Origin: a virus
Length of the DNA stretch: 44,054 bases
IMG/VR virus record: IMGVR_UViG_3300050821_008300
Span: 1 to 44,054 of that record
Reading direction: 5' to 3' (one strand)
Made by a program: the position numbers and the translations under genes. Within the stretch, counting starts at the first letter, position 1. Each line of letters starts with the position of its first letter. Positions 9,370 through 43,976 of this stretch are shown one piece after another. A model generated the notes under the pieces. It was not told the DNA's origin. It saw only the letters and a list, made by a program, of their open reading frames with translations, and did no database searches.

Positions 9370-9446
9370 TACCTCTCCATTTTCCGTTTCGCGCTGAACT
9401 GGGGTTTCAGCGCGCTGAAGCTTTCTCGATACCTCGGTAGTCTCAT
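9369..9446 (-). CDS. 25-residue micro-ORF bracketed by B and A hairpins
   Basis: MRLPRYRESFSALKPQFSAKRKMER. On the coding strand it is preceded by the B hairpin at 9459-9481 plus GGAGAAAGATCGATG, contains the A hairpin at 9391-9413 in its second half, and ends in TAATG, overlapping the next gene. This is the smallest case of the B-gene-A arrangement. The peptide itself is basic with no recognisable domain; it may be a translational-coupling leader and not a functional protein. Confidence 0.5.
   Translation of the reverse strand: MRLPRYRESFSALKPQFSAKRKMER
9391..9413 (-). repeat. Hairpin, A form on coding strand (variant loop)
   Basis: Stem GCGCTGAA, plus-strand loop CTGGGGT (one change). Within the 3' half of the 25-residue ORF, just before the 8707 gene's ribosome site. 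Confidence 0.8.
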
Positions 9447-9458
9447 CGATCTTTCTCC

Positions 9459-9481
9459 GCGCTGCAACTCCAGTGCAGCGC
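9459..9481 (-). repeat. Hairpin, B form on coding strand
   Basis: Stem GCGCTGCA, plus-strand loop ACTCCAG. On the minus strand it is followed by GGAGAAAGATCGATG, the start of the micro-ORF. Confidence 0.85.
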
Positions 9482-9584
9482 AAGACGAATATTTAAGCAA
9501 GGGCTGATGAGGTCCGCGAAGAATCCACCAGCCCCGCCCGGTCGTTGCTTTCGGTATAAGAAGCACGCAACCGTTGATACAGTG

Positions 9585-10451
9585 TTACTGGACCGACCGA
9601 TCTGTCAAGCCATCCAAGACAACGCGTAGGAAGGCAGACTGCCCGCCCGTAGTCCCTTGAGTGCCCGACGTCGATCCGCCGACGTAGTTACCCGCGGTCG
9701 AACCGGTTCCAATGGTCGGGGCCACGATGCCACCGCCGCCGAAGTTCAGCACCATTGAAAACTGCTGAAGGGGAGCGATGTACTTCGCCCAGTCCTGATA
9801 ACGTCTGGAGAACTGAGGCGCCGGAAGAGCGAGCGTGTAGCAAGACTCACCCGAATTCTGGGTTACGCCCGTCACGCCGCCGCCCGAAGGAAATTCAATG
9901 AGCGAGCCTTCGTGGAAAATCTTGTCGTCAATGCGAAACTCCATGTAGGCCGTGTTGACGATCGCGTCAATGTCAGGCTTCAAGAAGTTGGGCGAGAACT
10001 GAAACTCGATCGCGAGTAGCAGGAGGCAACGGGGAGGCGGAAGGCCATTCGAAGCGGATCGCGTGAGGTTGGTTTGCAGTTTCGACTTAGCGACTCCGTT
10101 AGTCGGGCCGCCCACTGCGCCCTGCGTGTTTACCGCGCCGATCTGATTCTGGAAGACTTGAATCTGACTCGGCACGGCCGCTGCGTTTGCGAAATAGATC
10201 GTGTCCCAATATTGCCAGGGGCCACGGTCTACCCAATTTTGCATAATCGCGTTTGTGTTACGCGCTTGCGCGGCTTCGGATGCGCTCATGATTTGGGGAG
10301 CCCCACCCGAATAAGCCATCCCGATCATGCCGAGCGCGCCGATAGCTTCAATCAGCGCTACTGCGGGTCGGGGGGAGTAAGCAACGTAAGCCACAGCGCA
10401 CAAAAGCGCGAGCGGGACTAACGCCGCTAGAAAAAGTTTGCGTGGAATCAT
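9585..10451 (-). CDS. Candidate major virion protein with N-terminal membrane segment
   Basis: 288 residues. An N-terminal hydrophobic segment (about 6-25) is followed by a second weaker one (about 33-50), then a beta-rich body with FRIDDKIFHEGSLIEFPSG and FSMVLNFGGGG, and a Gly-rich C-terminal region. The ribosome site (AAGGAAAAGGAA before ATG) is among the strongest in the operon, and a 10-bp hairpin sits upstream, both fitting high expression. I do not recognise the family. Position and expression signals make it a candidate major capsid or membrane-associated virion protein; this is inference. Confidence 0.6.
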   Translation of the reverse strand: MIPRKLFLAALVPLALLCAVAYVAYSPRPAVALIEAIGALGMIGMAYSGGAPQIMSASEAAQARNTNAIMQNWVDRGPWQYWDTIYFANAAAVPSQIQVFQNQIGAVNTQGAVGGPTNGVAKSKLQTNLTRSASNGLPPPRCLLLLAIEFQFSPNFLKPDIDAIVNTAYMEFRIDDKIFHEGSLIEFPSGGGVTGVTQNSGESCYTLALPAPQFSRRYQDWAKYIAPLQQFSMVLNFGGGGIVAPTIGTGSTAGNYVGGSTSGTQGTTGGQSAFLRVVLDGLTDRSVQ

Positions 10452-10480
10452 TTCCTTTTCCTTCTTTCAAAAGATTTTGC

Positions 10481-10516
10481 CCAGCGGGAATTTGCGTGCG
10501 CGGCCCTTCCCGCTGG
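10481..10516 (-). promoter_or_regulatory. Intercistronic hairpin upstream of the 9585 gene
   Basis: A perfect 10-bp inverted repeat, CCAGCGGGAA and TTCCCGCTGG, encloses 16 nt in the 87-bp gap between two structural genes. No good T-run follows on either strand. On the minus-strand mRNA it would sit at the 5' side of the strongly ribosome-bound 9585 gene, so an mRNA-stabilising or processing hairpin is more likely than a terminator. Confidence 0.6.
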
Positions 10517-10538
10517 ATTACAGAGCCGCGCCCGCTGT

Positions 10539-11414: not shown

Positions 11415-11431
11415 GTTTTACCTTGCTTCCG

Positions 11432-11908: not shown

Positions 11909-11942
11909 ACCTTCTCCCTTTAGCCCGGTTAACCGGGGCATT

Positions 11943-16377: not shown

Positions 16378-16620
16378 CTATCCGCGCTTCCTCCCCGCTA
16401 AGCCCAGCTCGCGCGCAATATCTTTTCCTGTGATTGGCTTCGATGGGATCGTCCCTTGAATCACGGTCTCTACTAATTCTCCGAGCCCTGCGTTCCAAAC
16501 TTCCTTCAGACCGATCTCGTTTGCAAAGTGTTCCGCGCCACGATAGGCCGCTACGTCCATGCGTCCGCGTGGGTCTGCGTCTTTTAGTCGTTCTACTGGA
16601 GCAGGAGGATTTTTTTTCAT
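16378..16620 (-). CDS. Small soluble protein, unknown
   Basis: 80 residues from MKKNPPAPVERLKDAD; GGAG lies 5 nt before this ATG. An alternative GTG at 16644 would overlap the upstream stop and add 8 residues. The protein is charged and helical (HFANEIGLKEVWNAGLGELVET) with no membrane segment, unlike its neighbours. Possibly an assembly partner of the tail-anchored set. Confidence 0.6.
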   Translation of the reverse strand: MKKNPPAPVERLKDADPRGRMDVAAYRGAEHFANEIGLKEVWNAGLGELVETVIQGTIPSKPITGKDIARELGLAGRKRG

Positions 16621-18586: not shown

Positions 18587-18672
18587 ATCCAACCTAAAAG
18601 AGTCTGATGCCACCACGTATAAGCGAGTTGTAGGAGCGTAGGCGCAAGCACAACTGCTGTGATGAGTCTCAT
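18577..18672 (-). CDS. 31-residue membrane micro-protein
   Basis: MRLITAVVLAPTLLQLAY then TWWHQTLLGWICS. One hydrophobic helix with Trp at the interface. The ATG overlaps the upstream stop (ATGA) and its TGA overlaps the next gene's start by 10 nt, so it fits the operon exactly although it is very short. Holin, lysis-regulator or virion micro-membrane protein are possible; nothing decides between them. Confidence 0.6.
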   Translation of the reverse strand: MRLITAVVLAPTLLQLAYTWWHQTLLGWICS

Positions 18673-19394
18673 TCGTTCACCGCCCAAAGAAGAGCAAGCC
18701 CGCCCGCGCCAATCAACCACAGTGGCAATCCGAAAACAGAAGCCGTGAGCAAACCGGAAACTGACGCGGGAAGAGCGGCCGAAATTGCAGAAGTTACGGA
18801 AGACGTTGCGGCTGCCGCTGGACTCGGAGGCGGGCCTACATCCGGATCGTTCGCAACTGGATCGTAGAAGAAAGACCAGTAATCGCAGAAGCCAATCTGC
18901 CCGCCGCCCATATTCGAATCGTTCAACGTGCTCGGACATGCTCGCCGCGTGAGTCTCTCTGCAATACAGCGCTGTCCCGCTTTCCCCAATGCCGGGTTTC
19001 CGCACATCTGCTGGAGCCAGCCGAAAATCTGATTGCACGCTTGCAAAAAAGCTTGCTGTGCTTCGTAAGGCCGCGGAGTCGGTAACGCGAAGTACTGAGC
19101 TTTCAACGTGTCTAGTTGCGCGCCTGCCTGATTCGCGTACGTTGTAGCCTGCGTGCAAGTCGCGCCGCATCCGGAAAAGATTTGAGCGAAGATACTCACG
19201 AGCTGTGCAGCAGCCTGAACGAATGGCGCGGCCGGCCCAGTGAATGGCGCAATCGCATTTGCAATCCCAGCCCCTTGCTGCCAAGCTGCCTCGGAGCCCA
19301 TGCCCCGCGATCGCTGCACGCCACGTTTGACGATTGCCCGACGCGCTGCAACTCCAGTGCAGCGCGAAACGGAAGATGCTGAAGAAACGTACAC
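18669..19394 (-). CDS. Tail-anchored Cys-rich protein with hairpin-encoded N-terminus
   Basis: 241 residues if translation starts at the GTG that abuts the upstream stop. Residues 9-17 (VSRCTGVAAR) are the translated B hairpin at 19343-19365. After this come RGVQRSRGMGSEAAWQQG, a helical Ala/Gln region, about nine Cys (70-165) and the anchor VFGLPLWLIGAGGLALLW. A later start inside the RGMGS region is possible, which would put the B hairpin in the leader. Member of the RGLGQ/anchor set. Confidence 0.65.
   Translation of the reverse strand: MYVSSASSVSRCTGVAARRAIVKRGVQRSRGMGSEAAWQQGAGIANAIAPFTGPAAPFVQAAAQLVSIFAQIFSGCGATCTQATTYANQAGAQLDTLKAQYFALPTPRPYEAQQAFLQACNQIFGWLQQMCGNPALGKAGQRCIAERLTRRACPSTLNDSNMGGGQIGFCDYWSFFYDPVANDPDVGPPPSPAAAATSSVTSAISAALPASVSGLLTASVFGLPLWLIGAGGLALLWAVNE
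19343..19365 (-). repeat. Hairpin, B form on coding strand
   Basis: Stem GCGCTGCA, plus-strand loop ACTCCAG, 3' flank GAAACGGAAGATGCTGAAG. Lies at the N-terminal end of the 18669 gene. Confidence 0.85.
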
Positions 19395-22281: not shown

Positions 22282-22304
22282 GCGCTGCACTGGAGTTGCA
22301 GCGC
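22282..22304 (+). repeat. Hairpin, B form
   Basis: Stem GCGCTGCA, loop CTGGAGT. Precedes the 22323 gene by 18 nt. Confidence 0.85.
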
Positions 22305-22487: not shown

Positions 22488-22732
22488 ATCATGGAAGACT
22501 CTGGTATTGCATCGACTGTGGCGCCGCGCGAATCTTCAGGGATGACGGCAACGTATTACACGAAGCGAGTTGCCGTTGTGGAGGCGAAATGGTTGCCACT
22601 ACCACGATAATCAAAGCCGTGTGGTCATCCAACACGGAAAGAAAGTTAGCGCTTCAGCGCGCGAACGCGGGAAGGTCTCAACCTTCGATAGACAGCCCAG
22701 AAGAGCGCCAACGGAAAAGGAAACTGAACTGA
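22484..22732 (+). CDS. Small zinc-ribbon protein
   Basis: 82 residues. CIDCG (residues 9-13) and CRCGG (about 31-35) form a four-Cys zinc ribbon. The tail DSPEERQRKRKLN repeats a motif found in the 38460 protein (KDSPEERQQ). ATGA coupling upstream and TGATG downstream. Nucleic-acid or protein binding is likely. Confidence 0.65.
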   Translation: MNHGRLWYCIDCGAARIFRDDGNVLHEASCRCGGEMVATTTIIKAVWSSNTERKLALQRANAGRSQPSIDSPEERQRKRKLN

Positions 22733-24720: not shown

Positions 24721-24834
24721 ATGAATCACCAGACGGAACGCCGAGGGCTTCAGGTTGCTATCGACAGTCGGGAATGTTGGGCGGGGGTACTCCAGTCCCC
24801 CGCCGTCGTCATCACGCAAAGGCTGAAATCATGA
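24721..24834 (+). CDS. 37-residue ORF ending in an A hairpin
   Basis: MNHQTERRGLQVAIDSRECW then AGVLQSPAVVITQRLKS. Residues about 21-28 are the translated A hairpin at 24780-24804. The TGA overlaps the next ATG (ATGA), and a weak AGG precedes the start. Probably a coupled micro-gene or leader. Confidence 0.5.
   Translation: MNHQTERRGLQVAIDSRECWAGVLQSPAVVITQRLKS
24780..24804 (+). repeat. Hairpin, A form (G-rich stem)
   Basis: Stem GGCGGGGG, loop TACTCCAGT. Translated near the end of the 37-residue ORF. Confidence 0.8.
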
Positions 24835-25410: not shown

Positions 25411-25433
25411 GTGCTGCCCTGGAGTGGCAGCAC
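25411..25433 (+). repeat. Hairpin, B form
   Basis: Stem GTGCTGCC, loop CTGGAGT, followed by GTTCGGAGGTCGATG, the start of the 25446 gene. Confidence 0.88.
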
Positions 25434-25667: not shown

Positions 25668-25906
25668 AGAACCTCTCAATGGAAACCTACTATTCTGTGC
25701 GTGTGAAAGTTGGAGGGCAACGTAATTTCGTCCGGATCGCAACTGCCGATCTCAAAGGTATGCGCGTTGGGGATACGTGCAGATTGTCAGACGGACGTAT
25801 TGGAGTTATACGAAAAATCACTGCGGGCGAAGGGTTTTCGTTAAACCCCCAACGTGCTGCCACTCCAGGGCAGCACGAAACGCAGGATGCTGAAGGAACG
25901 GAGTAG
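25664..25906 (+). CDS. Small beta-rich protein with A-hairpin tail
   Basis: 80 residues from a TTG overlapping the upstream TGA, or 75 from ATG 25679. The body (YYSVRVKVGGQRNFVRIA, MRVGDTCRLSDGRIGVIRKI) looks like a small SH3-like barrel. The last 18 residues, PQRAATPGQHETQDAEGTE, are the translated A hairpin at 25854-25876 with its conserved 3' flank. The same tail ends several unrelated proteins here. Confidence 0.6.
   Translation: MKNLSMETYYSVRVKVGGQRNFVRIATADLKGMRVGDTCRLSDGRIGVIRKITAGEGFSLNPQRAATPGQHETQDAEGTE
25854..25876 (+). repeat. Hairpin, A form
   Basis: Stem GTGCTGCC (same as the partner B at 25411), loop ACTCCAG; encodes the tail of the 25664 protein. Confidence 0.88.
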
Positions 25907-27044: not shown

Positions 27045-27286
27045 AACATCCATACCACTACAACGGGGACACGCCGCACGAAGTAATCAAGTGCCTGGAA
27101 GCCTGGGGGCTCGAATTCGACGCGCTTCTGTGGAACGCAGTGAAGTACATTGCGCGCTCTGGGAAGAAAGGCTCCGCGGTTACCGATCTGGAGAAAGCCC
27201 GTTTCTACATCGACCGCCGAATTGAAACACTCCGTGCAGCGGCAGGGCTATCCCAGTGCCCTGCCAAGACGAAAGAGCGTCCATGA
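26927..27286 (+). CDS. DUF3310 protein with A-hairpin tail
   Basis: 119 residues. Residues 40-100, HPYHYNGDTPHEVIKCLEAWG then LLWNAVKYIARSGKKG and DLEKARFYIDRRIE, match DUF3310, a small phage family sometimes called nucleotide kinase-like but of unproven activity. GGAG lies 10 nt before the ATG. The end LSQCPAKTKERP is the translated variant A hairpin at 27241-27265. Its stop overlaps the next ATG. Confidence 0.8.
   Translation: MSSSKRQRQIVLEKKVAREASRARAALRVGPNQPARELVKHPYHYNGDTPHEVIKCLEAWGLEFDALLWNAVKYIARSGKKGSAVTDLEKARFYIDRRIETLRAAAGLSQCPAKTKERP
27241..27265 (+). repeat. Hairpin, A form (variant loop)
   Basis: Stem GGCAGGGC, loop TATCCCAGT; flank AAGACGAAAGAGCG. Encodes the DUF3310 protein's end. 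Confidence 0.75.
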
Positions 27287-27645: not shown

Positions 27646-27920
27646 GCGATTTTAAGCTGGGCGAGACAGTTAGATTTGGTGGGGAGCATCGGTTAGCCGG
27701 TAAGATCGGTGAGGTCGTATACGTGAATCAAGAGCACGAATTCTTTGAGGTGCGCTTCGAGTCTAAGTTGTATCGTGCACTGGCCAGGCTCGGCAGTTGG
27801 GCTCCGCGGGTAGCCCGAGTGCGACCGCAGAAACTAGCTTTCTCGTTCCGTTGGGCACGTACGAATGTTCAACGCGCTGAAACTCCAGTTCAGCGCGAAA
27901 CGAAAGATGCTGAAGTGTGA
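27642..27920 (+). CDS. Small SH3-like protein with A-hairpin tail
   Basis: 92 residues from a GTG overlapping the previous stop. GETVRFGGEHRLAGKIGEVV and HEFFEVRFESKLYRA resemble a KOW/SH3-like barrel. The tail VQRAETPVQRETKDAEV is the translated A hairpin at 27874-27896, almost the same as the tail of the 25664 protein. No B hairpin precedes it. Confidence 0.6.
   Translation: MSDFKLGETVRFGGEHRLAGKIGEVVYVNQEHEFFEVRFESKLYRALARLGSWAPRVARVRPQKLAFSFRWARTNVQRAETPVQRETKDAEV
27874..27896 (+). repeat. Hairpin, A form
   Basis: Stem GCGCTGAA, loop ACTCCAG, 3' flank GAAACGAAAGATGCTGAAG. Encodes the 27642 protein's tail. Confidence 0.85.
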
Positions 27921-28481: not shown

Positions 28482-28493
28482 AATATTCGTCTT

Positions 28494-28515
28494 GTGCTGC
28501 TCTGGAATGCAGCAC
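28494..28515 (+). repeat. Hairpin, B form (variant loop)
   Basis: Stem GTGCTGC, loop TCTGGAAT; followed by GGGAGGTCGATG. Confidence 0.82.
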
Positions 28516-28527
28516 AATGGGAGGTCG

Positions 28528-28803
28528 ATGTCAAACAAAACCGAAGAGGAGAGAGCCGCTACGCCTTCGTTCGTGGGATTGTGCCCAGATTGCAAGATGA
28601 TGCTCGCTTGCGCCGTGGACGAACCCGCATACGCAAAGGACAACGCACGTTCGGTCGCCTCATGGATGAGAGCCGGTCTTATCATCGAAAAACGTTCCGT
28701 GGCTGATGTCAGAATTGCGCAATGGTGCAAATGCCCACGGCGCCGAAAGAAGAATCCCCCACGGGCTGCAACTCCAGTGCAGCCCGAGACGAAAGAAACC
28801 TGA
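28528..28803 (+). CDS. Zinc-ribbon protein in a B-gene-A cassette
   Basis: 91 residues. B hairpin 28494-28515, then GGGAGGTCGATG as start; CPDCK and CKCP (about residues 19-23 and 69-72) form a zinc site; the tail PPRAATPVQPETKET is the A hairpin 28763-28785. The stop overlaps the next ATG (TGATG). A clean one-gene cassette of about 310 bp. Confidence 0.65.
   Translation: MSNKTEEERAATPSFVGLCPDCKMMLACAVDEPAYAKDNARSVASWMRAGLIIEKRSVADVRIAQWCKCPRRRKKNPPRAATPVQPETKET
28763..28785 (+). repeat. Hairpin, A form
   Basis: Stem GGGCTGCA, loop ACTCCAG; encodes the tail of the 28528 protein. Its stem differs from the partner B. Confidence 0.85.
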
Positions 28804-29724: not shown

Positions 29725-30405
29725 ATGAAACACGCTCTCAGCTTCTTGGCAGGTGTCGCCCTCATCTCTCTCTGTATCATCGCGACTCGCTCTTTACCTG
29801 GGTACATGTTTCTGTTAGGCTACATGGTGTCAATTGCTTCCATTGTGATTCTCAGCCGGGCGATTGGATTTAGTCGAATTGCCCGGTTCTTTTTATGGCT
29901 TTCAAAAAGTGAAACAGTATTCGTCTCGTGCGGCCCTGGAGTAGCCGCACGTAGGGAGATCAGGAGTCTCCAGACGGGGCGAGCGTCTAGCGCAGTTCAG
30001 GCATCGGGCCGTAAGTCTGATGTTGGGATTGCGTTTTCGGTGAACCGCGGTCAGCAAGTGAACCCATCTGGAACGCGCGCGGTTCTGATGGCGGATGATG
30101 CTAGGCAGACCGGAAGGCCGCTTGCCCCGCGTGGAGAACTCCCAACGCGCTGCAACTCCAGTGCAGCGCGAAACGCAGGACGCCCCAAGAAAAATAGTGT
30201 ACAATCTTCTAACGGAAATAACGTGCTCCCTACAACTCAACAAGAAGTGCTCTCTGCTCTGATCAATCTTGGCGTGTCGTTTGGCAAGGCAGAAGAAGCC
30301 GTACATGCCGCCGCAAAAGAGCACGGCGGGGAGTCCTTCGATGAGATGTTTCGGACGGCCATAAGCCTCTTGAACGCGGGGAAGAGTCGGAGGGCCGCTG
30401 CGTGA
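29725..30405 (+). CDS. Membrane protein and RuvA C-terminal-like domain joined across a B...A pair
   Basis: 226 residues in one open frame. Residues 1-60 hold two membrane helices (SFLAGVALISLCIIA, FLLGYMVSIASIVILSRAIG). Residues about 67-77 (VFVSCGPGVAAR) are the B hairpin 29928-29950, and 138-150 (LPTRCNSSAAR) the A hairpin 30147-30169, with low-complexity sequence between. The last 60 residues (QQEVLSALINLGVSFGKAEEAVHAAA, MFRTAISLL; shown in parts) match the UBA-like RuvA domain III. A separate gene for that domain could start at GTG 30223. Whether the fusion is translated is open. Confidence 0.55.
   Translation: MKHALSFLAGVALISLCIIATRSLPGYMFLLGYMVSIASIVILSRAIGFSRIARFFLWLSKSETVFVSCGPGVAARREIRSLQTGRASSAVQASGRKSDVGIAFSVNRGQQVNPSGTRAVLMADDARQTGRPLAPRGELPTRCNSSAARNAGRPKKNSVQSSNGNNVLPTTQQEVLSALINLGVSFGKAEEAVHAAAKEHGGESFDEMFRTAISLLNAGKSRRAAA
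29928..29950 (+). repeat. Hairpin, B form
   Basis: Stem GTGCGGC, loop CCTGGAGTA; followed by GTAGGGAGATC but no ATG. Read in frame in the 29725 ORF. Confidence 0.82.
30147..30169 (+). repeat. Hairpin, A form
   Basis: Stem GCGCTGCA, loop ACTCCAG, 5' flank AACTCCCAAC. Precedes the RuvA-like part. Confidence 0.85.
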
Positions 30406-31711: not shown

Positions 31712-31892
31712 AATTGTATTCATCCTTGCGGCATGCCTGATATTTAGCGCGCTGGTGGATCTTGGCCACGCTCACGTTGCGGGCGCTGTGATGTTTATTG
31801 CCGGGTTTTTCATCGGGCGCAAGGATCAGCGGGAAGAGAACTCCCAACGTGCGGCAACTCCAGTGCCGCACGAAACGAAGGATGCCCAATAA
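31692..31892 (+). CDS. Two-helix membrane protein with A-hairpin tail
   Basis: 66 residues from GTG 31692 (AAGGGG upstream), overlapping the dioxygenase end by 20 nt; ATG 31704 is an alternative. Helices IVFILAACLIFSALV and HVAGAVMFIAGFFIG are followed by charged KDQREENS and the hairpin-coded tail QRAATPVPHETKDAQ (A at 31849-31871). Unknown function. Confidence 0.6.
   Translation: MLNLMPEIVFILAACLIFSALVDLGHAHVAGAVMFIAGFFIGRKDQREENSQRAATPVPHETKDAQ
31849..31871 (+). repeat. Hairpin, A form
   Basis: Stem GTGCGGCA, loop ACTCCAG, 5' flank AACTCCCAAC and 3' flank GAAACGAAGGATGC. Tail of the 31692 protein. Confidence 0.88.
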
Positions 31893-32695: not shown

Positions 32696-32712
32696 TGAGC
32701 TGTATTCGCCTT

Positions 32713-32735
32713 GTGCCGATCTGGAGTATCGGCAC
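32713..32735 (+). repeat. Hairpin, B form
   Basis: Stem GTGCCGAT, loop CTGGAGT, then AATCGGAGGTCGATG at the start of the 32752 gene. Confidence 0.88.
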
Positions 32736-32751
32736 AATCGGAGGTCGATGA

Positions 32752-32964
32752 ATGAGATATTTCTTTATCAGTTGTATTGGCTTCCTTTCCGCCCCGCTGT
32801 GGCTGCCTATTCTGTTTGTTGGTATCCTTTACGCCATACTAGCTCCGCTTTGTCGCGCCGCATTCGAGACGGGACAGGAGATAGGGTCCGAACTGTACTG
32901 TGATTCCGAATTTCCTCCCCGCGCTGCAACTCCAGTGCAGCGCAAAACGGAAGATGCCCAGTAA
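32752..32964 (+). CDS. Membrane protein in a B-gene-A cassette
   Basis: 70 residues with two hydrophobic helices (YFFISCIGFLSAPLWLPIL and FVGILYAILAPLC). B hairpin 32713-32735, then GGAGGTCGATGAATG; the second ATG fits this frame. Tail PPRAATPVQRKTEDAQ is the A hairpin 32921-32943. A cassette of about 240 bp with one gene. Confidence 0.6.
   Translation: MRYFFISCIGFLSAPLWLPILFVGILYAILAPLCRAAFETGQEIGSELYCDSEFPPRAATPVQRKTEDAQ
32921..32943 (+). repeat. Hairpin, A form
   Basis: Stem GCGCTGCA, loop ACTCCAG; tail of the 32752 protein. Its stem is unlike the partner B. Confidence 0.88.
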
Positions 32965-33379: not shown

Positions 33380-33392
33380 CATTCTCCGTTTT

Positions 33393-33415
33393 GCGCTGCC
33401 CTGGAGTGGCAGCGC
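33393..33415 (+). repeat. Hairpin, B form, no gene after it
   Basis: Stem GCGCTGCC, loop CTGGAGT; in the non-coding segment after the Ig-like gene. Confidence 0.82.
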
Positions 33416-33568
33416 ATTCGGATTTTGATTTCTCAGGGGTGCGTCTTTCTCCCCAGTCAGGCGCAAGGCCGTGAGGTGCGGTGTTCCTCCGACATCCACA
33501 CTTCGGGGAACGTTCCGGTCGGGAAGGTTCCTCCGTCCCCTGGAAGTTTACGACAGCCTGTAATCTTG

Positions 33569-35866: not shown

Positions 35867-35882
35867 TAGCGAAAGCTTCAAC

Positions 35883-35904
35883 GCGCTGCATTCCAGAGCA
35901 GCGC
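35883..35904 (+). repeat. Hairpin, A form (variant loop)
   Basis: Stem GCGCTGC, loop ATTCCAGA; between the holin-like and DUF192 genes, its flank running directly into ATG 35915. Confidence 0.8.
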
Positions 35905-35914
35905 GAGACGAATT

Positions 35915-36265: not shown

Positions 36266-36279
36266 GCATTCTTCGTTTT

Positions 36280-36302
36280 GCGCTGCACTGGAGTTGCAGC
36301 GC
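36280..36302 (+). repeat. Hairpin, B form
   Basis: Stem GCGCTGCA, loop CTGGAGT, then ATAGGAGTTTCGTG, the HNH gene start. Confidence 0.85.
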
Positions 36303-36313
36303 ATAGGAGTTTC

Positions 36314-36895
36314 GTGAGCACGCAACGGCGTACGCTGGGAGTCTACTCGCGCAAACGCCCGCTCGGTCCAAACGGAGAGAAAATCTGCTACAACTGCGGA
36401 GGGCCGTTACCTAAAGGCCGTCCGTTCAACTGCTCGCCCGAATGCTCTGAAGAATGGCGCTGTAAGACAAGCCCGTCACATATGCGCTTCGCGATTCACA
36501 AGCGCGACAAAGGGGTATGCGCGCTTTGCGGACTCGACACGGACGCTCTAAAACGGGAGTACGATGCAATTCGCAAAACGGACAAATCCGGTTATCACTG
36601 GAACGATCTGGAAGCAGCGGCAGCGTTTCGCGAAAAGCACGGGATTCCTCACGGCCGTTCAAGTTCGGATTGGTGGGACGCAGATCACATTGTCCCTGTC
36701 GTAGAAGGTGGGGGCGAGTGTGATCTTTCAAACTTCCGAACTCTTTGTATTCCCTGCCACAAGAAAGTAACTCGCGAATTGCACGGGCGCCGCGCCGCGA
36801 AGAACCGGGAAGCCCGCATACTTCAGAAGGACGAAGCCAGAACACTGTTTGCATGCTTATCAGCCGAGATAGAGGTACCAGGAGCAAAGCCTTAG
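36314..36895 (+). CDS. HNH endonuclease with extra zinc knuckle
   Basis: 193 residues from GTG 36314, preceded by the B hairpin 36280-36302 and AGGAG. An N-terminal zinc site (CYNCGGPLPKGRPFNCSPEC) is followed by CALCGLD, WWDADHIVPVVEGGGECDLSN and CIPCHKKVT, a complete HNH motif. Relatives occur in phages and in eukaryotic ZRANB3-type proteins. Probably cuts DNA. Intact, unlike the 28979 remnant. Confidence 0.8.
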   Translation: MSTQRRTLGVYSRKRPLGPNGEKICYNCGGPLPKGRPFNCSPECSEEWRCKTSPSHMRFAIHKRDKGVCALCGLDTDALKREYDAIRKTDKSGYHWNDLEAAAAFREKHGIPHGRSSSDWWDADHIVPVVEGGGECDLSNFRTLCIPCHKKVTRELHGRRAAKNREARILQKDEARTLFACLSAEIEVPGAKP

Positions 36896-36949: not shown

Positions 36950-37456
36950 GTGACCAAAGAAGAACTGATCGCTAAATCGTTTTATGCCGACCTTGGATGG
37001 GTACGTCACTCCAAAGATAATCCTGAAGAGCTGGACGCATGGGCGATTGTCAAAAGCAAGTTTCGGCGTACCGCCTACCAGCGGGAGCGCACCAAGGGAC
37101 TCCATAAGCTGCACCGTCGCTTTGAAGGCAAGTCGCCAAAATCGGGGCTGGCGTATGGGTTCCTGGTGTGGCTGCAAGGCCGCGCTGTCAATTGTTACTA
37201 TTGCGGACAGCGACACACGTCTGCGCAGCGCGACCACCTTGTACCGATAGCCAAGGAAGGCTCTGATTCCATCACCAACCTGCAAGCCGCGTGCAAAAAA
37301 TGTAACTCATCCAAGGGCGACAAGACGGAGTTGGAATACATCTCCAGGCGAATCTGGCACGGGCTTAAGGTCGCAAAGGATACCAGTGCGCGGGTTGAGT
37401 TTCTGAAACTGATGCTCTTCGTTGTCCAAGTACTGCATTTCAGCGAAAAGCCCTAG
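36950..37456 (+). CDS. HNH endonuclease (homing type)
   Basis: 168 residues from GTG. CYYCGQRHTSAQRDHLVPI, SDSITNLQAACKKCNSSKGDK is a classical zinc-HNH (shown in parts). N-terminal 60 residues are basic and helical. It is flanked by AT-richer intergenic bases with no ribosome site of note, and follows directly after another HNH gene. Likely a free-standing homing endonuclease. Confidence 0.75.
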   Translation: MTKEELIAKSFYADLGWVRHSKDNPEELDAWAIVKSKFRRTAYQRERTKGLHKLHRRFEGKSPKSGLAYGFLVWLQGRAVNCYYCGQRHTSAQRDHLVPIAKEGSDSITNLQAACKKCNSSKGDKTELEYISRRIWHGLKVAKDTSARVEFLKLMLFVVQVLHFSEKP

Positions 37457-37719: not shown

Positions 37720-37916
37720 TGCAACTGAACGTATCGGTTACTGAACTCGCCAAGATCAACCAGGAGCTTGCCGAAGCGCTTCGCCCGTGTCTTGCGGTCC
37801 TGGAATTCATCGAACTTACCATGTCTATTGAGCCGGCAGATCGTGCGTGCAAATTCAGGGCTTCGATTGAGGCAGCGCGCGCCGCCCTCGGGAAGGCCGA
37901 CACATGCCTATCCTAA
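37719..37916 (+). CDS. Small helical protein
   Basis: 65 residues with coiled-coil-like helices (VTELAKINQELAEALRPCLAV). The ATG overlaps the previous TAA and the end overlaps the next gene by 13 nt. Unknown. Confidence 0.5.
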   Translation: MQLNVSVTELAKINQELAEALRPCLAVLEFIELTMSIEPADRACKFRASIEAARAALGKADTCLS

Positions 37917-38470
37917 AGCTCGAACCCAACAAACCCTACAGCATCGCGCTGAAGTACCCCACGGGCAAGCAGGTTGATGGACTCTCGGGGCCGCAGCTCC
38001 GCTGGATTCTCTCAAACGGGGATCTCCTGTATACTCCAATGGTGGTAGGGCCACAAATCGAAGACCTTGGAATACGGCCCGGACAGCCGTTTACTCTCAC
38101 AAAATACCAGAACGGGCGTGGTTTCAACTGGATAGCTGAACTTTCTGCAAAAACCTCTGATAATATCAGACCGATCGGCAAAGGGCCGGCTGCCCAACGT
38201 GCGGCAACTCCAGTGCCGCACGAGACGAACAAAGCCCCTATAGCCCCTATTGCAGCAATTCTAGACGCCGCAGAGCCCCTAGACGGTATCCCAACGTCTC
38301 TTAGCCCTACCCGACTCGAAGACGCCTTAAAGACCGCCGTAGCCGCGGCTGCTGCTGCTGAGGTTTTTGGGAAGTCAATCGGGTATACCGTTCGTTTTGC
38401 GCCGTCAGATATCAAGAGCCTGGGAATCTCGGTGTACATTGGGCAGCAAGGGGGCCGGTATGCTGCCTGA
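37904..38470 (+). CDS. Two-domain phage protein with a hairpin inserted in its linker
   Basis: 188 residues. The N-terminal domain (1-80; YSIALKYPTGKQVDGLSGPQ, GIRPGQPFTLTKYQNGRGF) and the C-terminal helix-plus-strand domain (about 140-188; LKTAVAAAAAAEVFGKSIGY, SDIKSLGISVYI) are both seen together in soil phage proteins I remember, joined by a variable linker. Here the linker contains AQRAATPVPHETNKA, the translated A hairpin 38199-38221, in frame. A DNA-binding or annealing function is possible but unproven. Confidence 0.65.
   Translation: MPILKLEPNKPYSIALKYPTGKQVDGLSGPQLRWILSNGDLLYTPMVVGPQIEDLGIRPGQPFTLTKYQNGRGFNWIAELSAKTSDNIRPIGKGPAAQRAATPVPHETNKAPIAPIAAILDAAEPLDGIPTSLSPTRLEDALKTAVAAAAAAEVFGKSIGYTVRFAPSDIKSLGISVYIGQQGGRYAA
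38199..38221 (+). repeat. Hairpin, A form inside a gene linker
   Basis: Stem GTGCGGCA, loop ACTCCAG; in frame within the linker of the 37904 protein. Confidence 0.88.
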
Positions 38471-38972
38471 ACTGCCTGGTTGCCCGTCCATCTTCCACAG
38501 TGAACAGGGTTGCACTCTCAAAGCAGGGCATTACGGAGAGCACATTTTCAGACCGAGTAAAGAAATTCTTGCTATAGAAAACCGGATGAACTTCTGTTTC
38601 AACTGTGGAACTAAACTTATACCTTGGCAGCAAGACTGTACCGCTTTTTGGTGTAGCAACTGTTGCTGGGTGATGCGTGATGTTCTGACCACGTACAGCG
38701 TTTGGGGGCATGTTTGGGGGAAGTCTCAGAGCGCGAACCCGGAAGAATCTCAGCCGACGAAAGACAGCCCAGAGGAGCGCCAGCAAATAATAGAAAGGCT
38801 AGATCGAATCATCGAACTGATGACCGAAACGATGACCGAAGCGGGCAAAATGGTTGACCTTATCGATTATGCCGACTACTTGAGCAAGCTTGGTGCTTCA
38901 GCGCGCGCACGCGGGAAAGCGTCGGGACCAGATCGACCGTCGAGAAAAGCGCCGACGAAAACGAAAGCCTAG
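38460..38972 (+). CDS. Zinc-ribbon protein with coiled tail
   Basis: 170 residues. CFNCG (about 46-50) and CSNCC (about 65-69) form a zinc ribbon, followed by KDSPEERQQIIERLDRIIEL, a coiled helix, and a basic end. The DSPEERQ motif recurs in the 22484 protein. Overlaps the previous gene by 11 nt and the convergent gene by 4 nt. Confidence 0.6.
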   Translation: MLPELPGCPSIFHSEQGCTLKAGHYGEHIFRPSKEILAIENRMNFCFNCGTKLIPWQQDCTAFWCSNCCWVMRDVLTTYSVWGHVWGKSQSANPEESQPTKDSPEERQQIIERLDRIIELMTETMTEAGKMVDLIDYADYLSKLGASARARGKASGPDRPSRKAPTKTKA

Positions 38973-40117: not shown

Positions 40118-40142
40118 GGCGGGGCACTGGAGTAGCCCCGCC
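40118..40142 (-). repeat. Hairpin, A form on coding strand
   Basis: Stem GGCGGGGC, plus-strand loop ACTGGAGTA; 20 nt after the lytic-enzyme stop. Confidence 0.8.
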
Positions 40143-40161: not shown

Positions 40162-40701
40162 TTACGCATTCAGTGCCCACGCGATCGCGAGGCCAATTCC
40201 CAGAGTAATCGCTATCGTGGTCGGGTCCGTGAAGTCAATCGAGGATAGATCCATCGATGGCAAAACCGAGGAAAGATCCGCGCTCGCTGGCGTTGATGTA
40301 GAGCCCGCGGCGCCCGCGATCGCAGCAGACAGCGAATCGGACGGAGAGAGCCCCGCCGCGGCTGCAATTTGCGCCGCATACGACGTAGGATTGTTGCCGT
40401 CTGACGCAGGAGCATAGATGCTGGTGAACTGCGTTATGGACTGGCCGCGGGAAGCGTCGAGCGTGATCTGATTGTCGAGCGCTGTTAGCCCAGTCTGATA
40501 GTCCGGGAAGATCGCGAAGCCTTGCGCGTCTTGGCCGGTCGCGCCCGCTTGCCCGACATACATCAGGTTTCCGGGATTGTTATTCCGATACGATCGTGTA
40601 CCGGGCGCCCAGCCTTCAATTTGCTGAATCGTTGCCGCTACGGTCGCGAGATCTCCGACGCCGCGCCTTCGGATTCGCCTTCCCACAAAAACGTAAGGCA
40701 T
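40162..40701 (-). CDS. Membrane-anchored lytic enzyme (P7-like transglycosylase)
   Basis: 179 residues. N-terminal RIRRRGVGDLATVAATIQQ contains the basic RGVGD form of the family motif; Glu29 in QQIEGWAPG and RNNNPGNLMYVGQ (39-51) fit a lysozyme-like transglycosylase; DYQTGLTALDNQI follows. The C-terminus has an Ala/Ser/Pro linker and anchor TIAITLGIGLAIAWAL. It therefore shares head and tail with the structural membrane proteins, as expected of a virion-bound peptidoglycan opener. GGGGA precedes the ATG. Confidence 0.75.
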   Translation of the reverse strand: MPYVFVGRRIRRRGVGDLATVAATIQQIEGWAPGTRSYRNNNPGNLMYVGQAGATGQDAQGFAIFPDYQTGLTALDNQITLDASRGQSITQFTSIYAPASDGNNPTSYAAQIAAAAGLSPSDSLSAAIAGAAGSTSTPASADLSSVLPSMDLSSIDFTDPTTIAITLGIGLAIAWALNA

Positions 40702-40896
40702 TCATTCCCCAGTGGACGGCGGGGGACTGGAGTACCCCCGCCCAAGAGTTTCGAGGTTCGATAACGCCTTCTCGATTCGGTGTCCGATGAACAGAGCGAC
40801 AATGCCTAACACCAGCAGTAATGCGTAGAGCCTCCAAGCAATGCACATTCCGCCGACTACAGACACGAGCGAGTACAGTACCAAGAGGAACCGCAT
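40702..40896 (-). CDS. Two-helix membrane protein in a B-gene-A cassette
   Basis: 64 residues, MRFLLVLYSLVSVVGGMCIA and YALLLVLGIVALFIG, then a charged helix and the hairpin-coded end RGYSSPPPSTGE (A at 40718-40742). The B hairpin 40909-40931 with GGAG precedes the ATG. Lies between two lysin genes, so a holin role is attractive. Confidence 0.65.
   Translation of the reverse strand: MRFLLVLYSLVSVVGGMCIAWRLYALLLVLGIVALFIGHRIEKALSNLETLGRGYSSPPPSTGE
40718..40742 (-). repeat. Hairpin, A form on coding strand
   Basis: Stem GGCGGGGG, plus-strand loop ACTGGAGTA; tail of the 40702 protein. Confidence 0.82.
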
Positions 40897-40908: not shown

Positions 40909-40931
40909 GTGCCGATACTCCAGATCGGCAC
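40909..40931 (-). repeat. Hairpin, B form on coding strand
   Basis: Stem GTGCCGAT (as at 32713), plus-strand loop ACTCCAG; leader of the 40702 gene. Confidence 0.85.
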
Positions 40932-41552: not shown

Positions 41553-41719
41553 TTTTGTGGGGCCGTCCTTGAATCGATTCCGGTTCCTCGTTTCGGATGG
41601 AACTCTTTCCACTCGCTCTCTTCGTGTGCGCGCATTGCTCTACACGCTGGGCAGTTTGGGTTTGGTGTTCTCTGTACGTCTGCACCATCGTAGCGTTTTG
41701 TGAGCTTAGGGCAGTTCAC
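41549..41719 (-). CDS. Small zinc-ribbon protein
   Basis: 56 residues from GTG 41719 (GGAG upstream, GTGA overlap). Cys3 and CPAC (about 22-25), ending in a basic tail. ATGA-linked to the GH25 gene. Unknown. Confidence 0.55.
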   Translation of the reverse strand: MNCPKLTKRYDGADVQRTPNPNCPACRAMRAHEESEWKEFHPKRGTGIDSRTAPQK

Positions 41720-41943
41720 AATCTCTCCGTACGTTCTTCCGTTTTGGCAGGGCACTGGAGTAGCCCTGCCCCTGAACAGATTTCGCGATCGCGAGTTTTT
41801 TCGAGATCCGCGATCCATTGTTTCATGCCCCAGGGAACGAATTCCCGTTGCTGTTCAGCGATTTCGATCTCCCGTTTAATATACCGCTCCGCGCGATAGA
41901 GCAGATCCCTATACGCTTCTGCGACCGTGTAACCAGGGTTCAT
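41716..41943 (-). CDS. Helical protein in a B-gene-A cassette
   Basis: 75 residues: AYRDLLYRAERYIKREIEIAE and WGMKQWIADLEKTRDREI helices, then the hairpin tail LLQCPAKTEERTERL (A at 41746-41770). The B hairpin 41955-41979 and GGAGGGCGGTCGATG form the start. The tail matches that of the DUF3310 protein. Unknown function. Confidence 0.6.
   Translation of the reverse strand: MNPGYTVAEAYRDLLYRAERYIKREIEIAEQQREFVPWGMKQWIADLEKTRDREICSGAGLLQCPAKTEERTERL
41746..41770 (-). repeat. Hairpin, A form on coding strand
   Basis: Stem GGCAGGGC (as at 27241), plus-strand loop ACTGGAGTA; tail of the 41716 protein. Confidence 0.82.
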
Positions 41944-41954
41944 CGACCGCCCTC

Positions 41955-41979
41955 CGCATCGCTACTCCAGTGCGATGCG
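41955..41979 (-). repeat. Hairpin, B form on coding strand
   Basis: Stem CGCATCGC, plus-strand loop TACTCCAGT; followed on the minus strand by GGAGGGCGGTCGATG. Confidence 0.85.
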
Positions 41980-42018
41980 AAACGAAGAATGTTCATGTGA
42001 AAGAATTATACAGCCATC

Positions 42019-42047
42019 TTGACAACAGCGCCAGATCTAGCGATACT
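42019..42047 (+). promoter_or_regulatory. Predicted promoter of the methylase gene
   Basis: TTGACA (42019-42024), 17 bp, GATACT (42042-42047), starting about 15 nt before ATG 42069. Confidence 0.5.
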
Positions 42048-42068
42048 GGCAGCCGGGGAGGAAGTACC

Positions 42069-43001
42069 ATGTACCCTGGTGGAAAAAACGGCGGGGGAGC
42101 CTACCAAACCCTGATAAACCTGATGCCGCCGCACTCGGTCTACGTTGAGCCATTCTTGGGAAGCGGCGCCGTGATGCGGATGAAACGGCCGGCTCGGGTA
42201 AATATTGGGCTGGATCTGGACGGAGACGCCCTCCAAGCTGCTCGAATCGCCATTCTTCGCGAGCACGCCGGCGAAAACGGTAGAAACGACGATGGGCGCC
42301 GGCGAAGATCGTCAGAATTGGCGATCCCAGCTCCAATCGTCGAAAATGGCGACACGATATCGTCAGAACTGGCGAGCGCGGCCGTTCCCGCCGAAACTGG
42401 CGAGGGCTCCGGATGCATCGCTATAGCGGACGTGGCGCGATCGCTCAACGTCGGGCCGAACGATGCCACCAGGTGGGTTTTCGAGGTCCGGGACGGGATA
42501 AACTACCTCGGCGGCTTGCCGTGGTCAGGTTCCGAGCTGGTGTACTGCGATCCGCCCTATCTGATGAGCACCAGACGATCCGGAAAGCTGTACAAACACG
42601 AATTCACGGCTGGCCAGCATCGCCGGTTACTGCGAGTGGTCCAGGATCTCCCCTGCATGGTGATGATATCCGGGTATCATTCCGAAATGTACGGCCGTAC
42701 ATTGGCGGGCTGGAACGCAATCCAGTACCAGGCCATGACACGCGGAGGAATGGCAGCGACCGAGTGGGTTTGGTTCAACTTCCGGCCGCCCGTGACCCTC
42801 CATGACTACCGATACCTGGGGAAGAACTTCCGGGAGCGCGAACGCATCAAGCGCAAGAAAGCCCGCTGGGAAGCACGCTTAGAGAGAATGCCGGTCCTCG
42901 AGAGGCAATCGCTACTTTCAGCGATACAGGCCTTCAGCGCCCGAACTGGCGATGTCGGATCCGAAATCGTCAAGAGTGGCGAGGCTGCAGGATCGGCGTA
43001 G
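42069..43001 (+). CDS. dam: Dam-type (D12) adenine-N6 DNA methyltransferase
   Basis: 310 residues from ATG 42069, chosen for GGAGG 7 nt upstream. YPGGKNGGG (2-10) and VYVEPFLGSGAV (24-35) bind SAM, and VYCDPPYL (158-165) is the catalytic DPPY. YKHEFT, HRRLLRVVQ and MISGYHSEMY follow in family order. Residues 75-120 are an unusual hydrophilic insert coded by repeated TGGCGA-containing units. Likely protects element DNA or alters regulation. It is monocistronic, opposite to its neighbours. Confidence 0.88.
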   Translation: MYPGGKNGGGAYQTLINLMPPHSVYVEPFLGSGAVMRMKRPARVNIGLDLDGDALQAARIAILREHAGENGRNDDGRRRRSSELAIPAPIVENGDTISSELASAAVPAETGEGSGCIAIADVARSLNVGPNDATRWVFEVRDGINYLGGLPWSGSELVYCDPPYLMSTRRSGKLYKHEFTAGQHRRLLRVVQDLPCMVMISGYHSEMYGRTLAGWNAIQYQAMTRGGMAATEWVWFNFRPPVTLHDYRYLGKNFRERERIKRKKARWEARLERMPVLERQSLLSAIQAFSARTGDVGSEIVKSGEAAGSA

Positions 43002-43024
43002 GTGGCGATGGGATCCAATCGCCA
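42309..43024. repeat. Cluster of TGGCGA-containing direct repeats
   Basis: TGGCGA occurs at 42319, 42347, 42370, 42398, 42947, 42977 and 43004-43009 (as GTGGCGAT), mostly preceded by GTCAGAA or CGAAA. The first four are 28, 23 and 28 bp apart inside the methylase insert. Confidence 0.6.
43003..43024. promoter_or_regulatory. Hairpin between convergent genes
   Basis: TGGCGAT (43003-43009) and ATCGCCA (43018-43024) pair around an 8-nt loop just after the methylase stop and before the opposing stop at 43028. No T-run follows on either strand, so termination is uncertain. Confidence 0.45.
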
Positions 43025-43027
43025 ATG

Positions 43028-43222
43028 TCAGCGATGCAATATAAAAGGGCCGGGAGCCGCGCCCATCAGCGCATACAGAAGCCAGATGACAATGAACACC
43101 ACCACTACCACTCGGATAATCTGCTTGATGCTGGCGTCGATCGGCAGGAAGTTGACGAGCCACAAAAGAAGCCCGATGATGATCAGGCAAATGAGAAGCT
43201 GAATCAGGAACGCGGGAAACAT
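43028..43222 (-). CDS. Small hydrophobic membrane protein (Thivi_2564-like)
   Basis: 64 residues, two long hydrophobic helices around LPIDASIKQIIRVVVVVF. I recognise this as the widespread small phage membrane family often labelled Thivi_2564. Holin-like in size; function unproven. Last gene of the minus-strand operon before the methylase. Confidence 0.75.
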   Translation of the reverse strand: MFPAFLIQLLICLIIIGLLLWLVNFLPIDASIKQIIRVVVVVFIVIWLLYALMGAAPGPFILHR

Positions 43223-43246
43223 AGGCCCTCCCCTTGTTTGAGCTTA

Positions 43247-43630
43247 CTACTTGCCAGGATTCGGCGCTGTACCCTTTTGCTCAGGTGGCTGCTGGACGGT
43301 AATTTCAGAAGTTGTCTTTGTCGTTACGGTCGCCCCGCTTGGGTTCACTTCGGTTTTCTCGCTTGCAGTCTGAGCCGTCATGACTGCCGGAAGTGAGTTC
43401 TGCTTTAGGTAGGCCCACATCTGCCCCAAGCCAGCGACAAGAAAGATGATGGTTGAGAGCTTGACCAGTTTCCAGGGATCATTAAAATTGAATTTTTCCG
43501 GGTCCATGCCCATTACTGCGAATGTCCCCGATGCTGCCGTGGAGCCGCCGCCGATAATCGCGGAGAGCAATCCGTACAGCCATTGATCCCAAGCGAGATT
43601 CTTCCAAAACGATGACAGGGCTATCGGCAT
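43247..43630 (-). CDS. Holin-like/phage membrane protein
   Basis: 127 residues from MPIALSSFWKNLAWDQWLYG. A first helix (YGLLSAIIGGGSTAASG), a linker with DPEKFNFNDPW, a second helix (STIIFLVAGLGQMWAYL) and a Thr/Pro-rich tail. Similar proteins recur in soil phages near lysis genes. The ATG lies inside the end of a 24-residue ORF. Confidence 0.65.
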   Translation of the reverse strand: MPIALSSFWKNLAWDQWLYGLLSAIIGGGSTAASGTFAVMGMDPEKFNFNDPWKLVKLSTIIFLVAGLGQMWAYLKQNSLPAVMTAQTASEKTEVNPSGATVTTKTTSEITVQQPPEQKGTAPNPGK

Positions 43631-43695
43631 AAAAACTTCATCACTTTCGCCAGCGGAAAGAAAAAAGCGGTAAGAATCCAACCTCGAAGCTTCAT
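43621..43695 (-). CDS. 24-residue membrane micro-ORF
   Basis: MKLRGWILTAFFFPLAKVMK then FLCR. Basic ends around one hydrophobic helix. TGATG overlap with the upstream gene and a 10-nt overlap with the next start, the same geometry as the 18577 micro-gene. Confidence 0.45.
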   Translation of the reverse strand: MKLRGWILTAFFFPLAKVMKFLCR

Positions 43696-43976
43696 CACTG
43701 CCCACCGTTTCCTTGAGCTACACTGAAAGGTCGGTCAGACTTGGGCACGGAGGTCTGAGAATGCGACGAAAGTCCAAAGCGCCCACCCATCCCGTGGGCT
43801 ATCCCGACTCTTGATTGTCCCGCTACTCCAGTGCGGGACGAGACGAAGGATGCATCTCGTATTGTAGCTACTGAAGATCGAATAGTATACCCTGCCTGGT
43901 GAGCTGCAAAGTAGTCTCCTAGAAAAAAGAACAGGCTGATGAGAGCCGCGCCGAGCAGTTCCTTCGCGTGGTTCAT
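43695..43976 (-). CDS. Membrane protein read through a B hairpin
   Basis: 93 residues from the ATG that overlaps the beta-helix stop across the join. Helix ELLGAALISLFFFLGDYFAA, then RDASFVSSRTGVAGQ, which is the translated B hairpin 43817-43839, then a polar segment. The B hairpin could instead lead a separate 31-residue ORF starting MGGRFGLSSHSQ at its 3' side. Confidence 0.55.
   Translation of the reverse strand: MNHAKELLGAALISLFFFLGDYFAAHQAGYTIRSSVATIRDASFVSSRTGVAGQSRVGIAHGMGGRFGLSSHSQTSVPKSDRPFSVAQGNGGQ
43817..43839 (-). repeat. Hairpin, B form on coding strand
   Basis: Stem GTCCCGC, plus-strand loop TACTCCAGT, flank GAGACGAAGGATGC; inside the 43695 ORF. Confidence 0.82.

Follow-up and report, generated by a model that had tools for sequence, protein, structure and literature searches.

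A hairpin with a constant loop, found at gene joints of phages that are not all related, seems to spread in the manner of bacterial chromosomal repeats

The stretch of DNA analysed here, referred to as the window, is the whole IMG/VR virus record IMGVR_UViG_3300050821_008300 (44,054 nt). Its ends carry an exact 97 bp repeat and it is therefore probably a complete circle of about 44 kb. Pfam and NCBIfam searches with 71 of the 115 listed window open reading frames (ORFs), evaluated on full match lists, identified an endolysin, methyltransferases, three HNH proteins and few others, and no terminase, integrase, polymerase or transposase. Dispersed among these genes lie 27 short hairpins with a nearly constant loop, ACTCCAG, which are the subject of this work and which seem to form a family that spreads between viral genomes.

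ACTCCAG occurs 29 times on the two strands of the window, compared with a mean of 4.0 and a maximum of 9 in 100 shuffles, and 23 of these sites are enclosed by perfect arms of 7-10 bp; the six sites without a stem are located at 834, 2565, 4191, 8889, 16625 and 24626. A scan blind to the loop sequence (stems of at least 8 bp, loops of 3-12 nt) returned 28 hairpins in the window and 2-9 in ten mononucleotide shuffles. Family members account for 26 of the 28, four of them with loop variants (ACCCCAG, ATCCCAG and two ATTCCAG), and the 27th copy, at 43817-43839, has a 7 bp stem. The count of 27 dispersed hairpins between 9390 and 43839, far above shuffles, as well as the ACTCCAG loop with few exceptions (23 copies and 4 variants), had been claimed from the sequence alone and both are borne out. 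Stems measure 8-9 bp in 25 of the 27 copies, with one of 10 bp and one of 7 bp, and loops 7-9 nt. Two classes of flanks surround the same loop. Most copies (type I) continue into a RARACGRA-like sequence, while type II copies are laid out as CTTG-GGCGGGGCT-loop-TGCCCCGCC-GA and are found in the window at 24789, 33578, 40127 and 40727. The flanks quoted in the sequence-only reading thus hold as a consensus, but a pattern with both of them matched a single copy, and there are two classes rather than one. The common loop and flanks fit a single element family, in agreement with the descent from one element proposed there.

To describe the stem we aligned 52 copies from three genomes with MAFFT (alignment A9, 45 columns, no gaps), namely from the window, from IMGVR_UViG_3300037116_000081 (G001, 85,924 bp), whose first ~42 kb are colinear with the window in reversed and circularly permuted form, and from the more distant relative IMGVR_UViG_3300017934_000001 (G003). 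Nine of the 52 are type II. Among the 43 type I copies, 40 have an [AG]ACG tag, which reads CGTC or CGTT on the opposite strand, at a distance of 1-2 nt from the stem, and loops end in CAG in 50 of the 52. Ten further copies, either decayed or with a loop of different length, were omitted from A9 and included in A10, giving 62. Covariation was measured by paired-column counts against shuffled and slid controls, together with an Infernal model. Eight of the nine pairs had changed on both sides in the 52 copies, and the covariation score was 0.598 compared with 0.163 ± 0.016 for shuffled and at most 0.130 for slid alignments. In the seven inner pairs of the 62 copies (434 cells, counted in an alignment fitted to the structure model), 345 cells hold the commonest pair, 86 are changed on both sides, 3 are unpaired and none is one-sided or G-U; the unfitted 52-copy alignment gives 363 Watson-Crick inner pairs, no G-T and 1 mismatch. 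The second stem pair is G-C in all 62 copies. The earlier description of the stems as fully covarying applies to the seven inner pairs but not to the outermost pair, unpaired in 8 of 52 copies, or the innermost, unpaired in 24 of 52. Pairwise identity over the 52 copies is 0.91 in the loop, 0.63-0.66 in the arms and 0.39 in the outer left flank, and over the 43 type I copies 0.90 in the loop, 0.78 in the tag and 0.68-0.70 in the arms. The loop is thus the most conserved part, followed by the tag beside the stem. This bears on template-switch correction, a known mutational process by which replication makes imperfect palindromes perfect and arms co-vary without selection. It would account for the perfect arms and the absence of one-sided states; the loop, however, should then drift like the arms, and neither the tags nor the spread of the element are explained. 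Since the loop is more constant than the arms, palindrome repair alone is insufficient. As the full explanation we hold it to be very improbable, though it may act in addition. Selection for the folded form stays the likeliest, if not the sole possible, cause of the perfect arms, which template-switch correction could also keep matched.

The Infernal covariance model (R1) was built from the 52 aligned copies, after loose matches without family flanks had been discarded by eye, and these copies match it by construction; 10 of its 62 matches are new. Copy number differs between the three genomes: at E<=2e-6 the window has 27 copies, G003 has 3, and G001 has 32, none of them beyond 41.5 kb. The next matches have E>=0.076, and there was no convincing copy in seven other records (G002 and G004-G009, two of them short pieces). 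G001 itself consists of a window-like phage (1 to ~41.9 kb) apparently joined to a tailed-phage-like part with a terminase (41.6-85.9 kb), the ends of which repeat at 95.6% identity; the record may be either a chimaeric assembly or a real fusion. In IMG/VR at large, the exact flank pattern had no match and a stem-plus-loop pattern pointed to nine further records, six of which contain model matches, with none at E<=0.001 in G010, G012 and G015. One of the six, G018, is an identical piece of G013 and was dropped, leaving five further carriers. At E<=0.001 we counted 22 copies in G014 (IMGVR_UViG_3300031715_000001, 106,688 bp), 10 in G013 (3300005531_000248, 81,155 bp), 2 each in G011 and G017 and 1 in G016. 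A relative of the tailed-phage half of G001, G016 has counterparts of two of 55 predicted window genes (tblastn, E<=1e-5) and G014 of one, and none was found in G011, G013 or G017. The terminase family phrog_2 is present in G011, G013 and G016 and an integrase domain in G014 and G017. Hits at a background rate in unrelated genomes, which would have spoken against the family, were not what emerged: some unrelated viruses hold up to 22 copies and others none. The loops in G014 are diversified (ACTCCAG, ACCTCAG, ATTACAG, TATGCCAGAT and GGGTTCCAGGA among others, up to 11 nt), and the CAG, the RARACG tag and the paired stem are mostly kept despite the change of loop. Over the 37 copies of the five further carriers at E<=0.001, weaker ones being left out, 259 inner cells comprise 252 Watson-Crick pairs, 5 G-T pairs, some of them from uncertain register, and 2 mismatches. 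Among named phages and plasmids, neither megablast of the right half of the window nor a 61-nt blastn query found element-like DNA, and tblastn with one protein each had no match.

In the window the copies are concentrated at gene joints (Table 1), with 18 of 23 tested lying within 60 nt of a gene junction drawn by eye. They occur in both orientations relative to transcription, and several opposed copies occupy, by eye, the gap between a stop codon and GGAGG..ATG. Out of 15 copies in the sense direction, six share one frame, encoding RA.TPV..ET or close variants, in five C-terminal tails and at one internal position. Three more sense copies (27250, 40727 and 41755) form the in-frame ends of genes in other phases; the copy at 30155 lies within a long open frame in a third phase. 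The internal unit encodes QRAATP.PHET in a linker of gene 37904-38470 and of its G001 orthologue and is not found in the homologues from G003, G008 and G002. Conversely, a copy that immediately precedes the start of gene 18 in G001 has no counterpart in the window, and G001 also has a ~170-nt insertion containing a copy past the stop of gene 40162-40701. The check proposed in the sequence-only reading, whether related elements carry copies at different loci, has a positive outcome, the relative having them at both shared and different loci.

Table 1. Hairpin copies of the window, with strand, class, and position relative to genes and to copies in related genomes.
Position	Strand	Class and structure	Context
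9390..9414	-	type I, loop ACCCCAG, 9 bp	20 nt upstream of start (9369) of gene 8707-9369
9459..9481	+	type I, loop ACTCCAG	inverted neighbour of copy 9390..9414
19342..19366	+	type I	between genes 19395-20600 and 18669-19301; orthologous G001 copy 8845
22282..22304	-	type I	directly past stop of gene 20735-22273; orthologous G001 copy 5903
24780..24804	+	type II	different, type I-like copy at same locus in G001
25411..25433	-	type I	between stop and GGAGGTCGATG start (by eye); left end of stretch without G001 homology
25853..25877	+	type I	in frame as C-terminal tail (QRAATPGQHETQDAE)
27241..27265	+	loop ATCCCAG	in frame at C-terminus of DUF3310 protein
27873..27897	+	type I	in frame as C-terminal tail (QRAETPVQRETKDAEV)
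28492..28517	-	type I, loop ATTCCAGA	between stop and start codons (by eye)
28762..28786	+	type I	in frame as C-terminal tail (RAATPVQPETKET)
29927..29951	-	type I	orthologous G001 copy (38437) with different, paired stem
30146..30170	+	type I	inverted neighbour of 29927..29951; orthologous G001 copy 38228
31848..31872	+	type I	in frame as C-terminal tail (QRAATPVPHETKDAQ)
32711..32737	-	type I, 10 bp	between stop and GGAGGTCGATG start (by eye)
32921..32943	+	type I	in frame as C-terminal tail (RAATPVQRKTEDAQ); ACCCCAG subtype here in G001 (36130)
33392..33416	-	type I	past a stop codon
33569..33593	+	type II	
35882..35905	+	type I, loop ATTCCAGA	10 nt upstream of ATG (by eye)
36279..36303	-	type I	between stop and start (by eye); variant copy at G001 locus
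38198..38222	+	type I	in frame inside gene 37904-38470 (QRAATPVPHET); in G001, not in G002, G003, G008 homologues
40118..40142	-	type II	past stop of gene 40162-40701; orthologous in G001 (30411)
40718..40742	-	type II	16 nt upstream of start of gene 40162-40701; in frame at end of gene 40702-40896; compensated changes relative to G001 (29634)
40909..40931	+	type I	between endolysin stop and next start; decayed in G001
41746..41770	-	type I, GGCAGGGC stem	in frame at end of ORF 41719-41943
41955..41979	+	type I	upstream of ORF starting 41943; orthologous G001 copy (27789) with different paired stem
43817..43839	+	type I, 7 bp stem GTCCCGC/GCGGGAC	

Such positions would suit RNA regulatory hairpins, transcribed near the ribosome-binding site and bound by a phage or host protein, or guarding the end of the mRNA. 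Visual inspection places many copies directly past stop codons and 10-60 nt ahead of starts; several that oppose transcription have GGAGGTCG-ATG behind them, and in that orientation GGAG is part of the loop. RNA helices, however, normally pass through G-U states, and the 434 inner cells of the 62 copies contain none despite their switches between G-C and A-U. With copies in both orientations to transcription the RNA loop would be ACUCCAG or CUGGAGU; one copy is in frame within a protein linker; and the scan of the window with Rfam 15 at gathering thresholds gave 0 matches. We therefore consider regulatory RNA an improbable explanation. The lack of G-U and one-sided states in the inner pairs points to a helix formed by DNA as the simplest reading. 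The claim that the folded form is selected, in RNA or in single-stranded DNA, stands on covariation far beyond the shuffled and slid controls and can be sharpened in favour of folded DNA. Two other candidates were set aside. The half-sites of a dimeric double-stranded DNA-binding site would change independently and not symmetrically, and this candidate was rejected. N4-type hairpin promoters do not fit loops of 7-9 nt and copies in both orientations.

At orthologous loci of the window and G001 the element is often kept with a stem altered in a paired way: the stem is CGCATCGCT at 41964 of the window and CGTGCGGCT in G001, CGTGCGGCT at 29936 and TGCGCCACT in G001, and GGCGGGGGT at 40727 and GGCAGGGCT in G001. 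Locus 24789 holds a type II copy in the window and a type I-like copy in G001, and the subtype differs at locus 32929. The exact stem and loop of the CGCGCTGAA/ACCCCAG subtype are found in 6 of the 52 copies, five in G001 and one in the window, a pattern as would be expected of recent spread or conversion in G001. Orientations alternate along both genomes (20 runs versus 14.1 expected in the window, P 0.013; 27 versus 16.7 in G001, P 5e-5), and all 21 neighbours within 500 nt are inverted, 16 head-head by orientation, 5 tail-tail and none direct. Furthermore, 14 of the 30 ends of homology gaps between the window and G001 have a copy within 60 nt, versus 6.0 expected (P 0.0027), in a test that covered 23 of the 27 window copies (22.2-43.3 kb) and used a filtered chain of local alignments and gene junctions drawn by eye. 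In G001, the regions 29.17-29.67 kb and 33.72-34.23 kb are inverted duplicates with 80% identity, each spanning one gene together with the type I and type II copies that flank it; just outside, the similarity fades. In addition, a 193-bp stretch between two copies matches, at 93% identity, a site in the tailed-phage half of G001 that, by eye, still has an arm and tag of a copy at its edge.

These observations would also be consistent with elements that act as recombination joints only, like the 'mobile regulatory cassettes' (PeSL) of T4, where homologous recombination shuffles genes and spreads and homogenises the elements without a transposase. Homology ends near copies above chance, the gene duplicated in inverted form between its bounding copies, the 93% identical segment shared by the two parts of G001, which ends near copies, and the subtype switches at orthologous loci all favour such joints. 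They do not account for compensated arms with a more conserved loop, for the in-frame linker copy, or for copies in viruses with little or no other similarity, and we judge joints alone rather unlikely. The PeSL, reported by Arbiol et al. in 2010, are likewise short hairpin-bearing intergenic phage elements marking modular gene shuffling and reportedly carry an early promoter; the phage element studied here is unlike them in its constant loop and its entry into reading frames. A further candidate is a site for a tyrosine recombinase, either one that reads a folded structure, as at integron attC, or one acting on a core whose 7-bp crossover is constant; in its favour are inverted arms around a constant 7-nt spacer, a cassette-like arrangement and, by eye, some left flanks that fit RYYYAAC. 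No matching GTTRRRY box was seen by eye on the other side, however, and Phage_integrase (PF00589) was detected in only two of the eight carriers (G014 and G017), with no match in the other six including the window. Close copies are inverted here, while integron cassettes carry direct attC sites. Folded single-strand sites, variable arms and a cassette-like context are shared with attC (see PMC8266576); no integron integrase and, by eye, no paired R boxes were found. Of the explanations weighed, this is the one to which we give the least credit.

Although the sequence-only reading knew no named family with this loop, the architecture resembles palindromes of the repetitive extragenic palindrome (REP) type. 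Palindromes of this kind are familiar from bacterial chromosomes. In what is given by Corneloup et al. (2021, PMC8266576) for GTAG REPs, which are mobilised by TnpA-REP, a REP-associated tyrosine transposase (RAYT), the enzyme acting on perfect-palindrome REPs needs the loop bases, the tag and a mismatch-free stem, and the stem sequence matters only in part. The element described here is alike in its recognisable loop and tag and its perfect but partly free stem; unlike these REPs it has no GTAG at the stem foot in the 52-copy consensus, no Y1 transposase was found in its carriers, and G-T stem pairs, often seen in GTAG REPs according to PMC3733652, are rare. With CGTC-tagged REPs, including RPE-4 and RPE-6 of Rickettsia (Di Nocera et al. 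2013, PMC3733652), the element shares a stem of 8-9 bp, an unpaired tag beside it (CGTYTY here, in type I), dominance of head-head pairs (with no direct pairs in the window and G001), units in frame in proteins, subfamilies with complementary stem changes and no linked transposase gene. According to the same survey, CGTC REPs have loops of 4-5 nt, whereas loops here measure 7-9 nt (in G014 as many as 11); their stems begin with two AT pairs, which the phage element lacks; and they end in a CCA tail, where here the majority letters at that end are TnGGA when the tag is read first. The tag here is moreover often CGTT, 1-2 nt off the stem, and the element is found in virus genomes. Since GTAG, loop length, first stem pairs and tail do not match, we file it under neither group; the family is distinct from both GTAG and CGTC REPs, a new variant and not a member.

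The constraints on stem, loop and tag, the head-head pairs and the in-frame units resemble TnpA-REP biochemistry and the REP survey, and on these grounds we propose, with moderate confidence, that each hairpin is a copy of a mobile phage palindrome of ~45 bp that works like a bacterial REP element. The unit consists of Watson-Crick arms of 7-9 bp and a loop, ACTCCAG, with CAG at the 3' end in nearly all copies, that would be the part recognised; type I adds the unpaired tag RARACG (CGTYTY on the other strand) beside the stem. One strand may fold while the DNA is single-stranded during replication, and a putative trans-acting enzyme, most likely a host HUH/Y1-type (RAYT-like) protein, would read loop and tag, demand perfect pairing, tolerate the stem sequence, and copy or move the unit. 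Inverted pairs of units could carry the intervening gene. Copies would survive where they do no harm, namely between stop and start codons, in linkers and in C-terminal tails, and may there provide a Shine-Dalgarno sequence and start or a tail, serving also as joints at which cassettes are exchanged. A bolder version, which we think unlikely, makes the family a viral analogue of integron cassettes: single-strand hairpin units recognised by a host HUH-type enzyme would have been adopted by communities of unrelated phages as exchangeable gene joints. Inverted pairs would carry one gene at a time between phages with little else in common, and each unit would bring a stop, a ribosome-binding site or a tail of its own.

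Several observations weigh against a REP-like element. A Y1 transposase (PF01797) was found in none of the eight carrier records, in a search whose control rang in 10 of 14 cases; the enzyme is therefore hypothetical and would be supplied in trans, probably by the host, and a chromosomal family of the element is likewise hypothetical and unproven. The tag and loop are unlike those of GTAG and CGTC REPs, and the tag is missing from the 9 type II copies. Many copy positions are common to the window and G001, so retention or function at the locus is involved, and not only movement. We could establish no target-site duplication, good alignment at the empty site of gene 18 is limited to one flank, and the linker of gene 37904-38470 varies in length for other reasons too. 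G014 shows no alternation of orientation (P 0.63) and has one neighbour pair within 500 nt, and the breakpoint test is weak when restricted to gene junctions, which were drawn by eye (12 of 17 junctions with a copy versus 11 of 31 without, P 0.034). As to the stem, one of five covariation measures, that of further pair types, does not exceed shuffles (142 of 500 reach the observed value), and G-T occurs in the outermost (2 of 52) and innermost (2 of 52) pairs.

No title or abstract start in the literature searched describes such a phage hairpin family, the T4 PeSL work lying outside that search. In a 2024 review of miniature inverted-repeat transposable elements in prokaryotes (PMC10969869), bacteriophages are mentioned once, in the abstract. 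The copies reach a density of ~0.6 per kb of phage genome and occur also in unrelated phages. If true, such a family would make phages a possible vehicle for REP-like palindromes between genomes, and the phage copies would give small replicons for watching movement. It would also offer a structural explanation for mosaicism at the gene joints of these phages and a natural data set on a folded DNA site in which loop, tag and perfect pairing are recognised and the stem sequence is free.

As regards the source virus, the related records G003, G004, G006, G008 and G009 share structural-looking genes with the window and also have exact end repeats, of 67-127 bp. Together with the window they form a family of probably complete circular genomes of 33-45 kb without a recognised terminase large subunit, phrog_2 being found in none of the six. 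In the window, Pfam, NCBIfam and PHROGs searches of the same 71 ORFs (25 of 86 PHROGs families) gave no convincing recombinase, polymerase, terminase or ATPase, the PHROGs matches including two weak ones to the small-terminase family phrog_4581. A loose P-loop motif scan of all six frames had three loose matches, none convincing, so that across these searches the window is also without a convincing P-loop ATPase, polymerase or integrase. The predicted structure of gene 6328-7137 is beta-rich (pLDDT 66) and its top Foldseek match in the PDB is the PRD1 major capsid protein (E 6e-4), with VIA-align Z<=6.1 against many jelly rolls; the predictions (gene 11, pLDDT 52; gene 7, pLDDT 66) are too weak to lean on, and the virus family may possibly be tailless. 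Two scans of genome contigs with a conserved structural protein, made in search of a host, found no relative.

The HNH endonuclease genes of the window lie at 28979-29413, 36278-36895 and 36950-37456; three proteins match, and 36278-36895 was assigned by elimination. By eye, the DNA adenine methylase gene (41970-43001) contains many internal TGGCGA-type repeats. A second dispersed repeat, in coding sequence, is present at 22648-22712 and 38725-38812 of the window and at 31415-31479 and 31950-32011 of G001, and encodes hydrophilic tails such as DSPEERQ (by eye). Two stretches of G003, 1953-2015 and 16501-16557, also match a tail of the window near 38820-38972. Finally, G013 and G003 share nine short similar stretches (77-94% identity over 53-89 bp), two of which are the hairpin element, and the remaining ones resemble further dispersed repeats.

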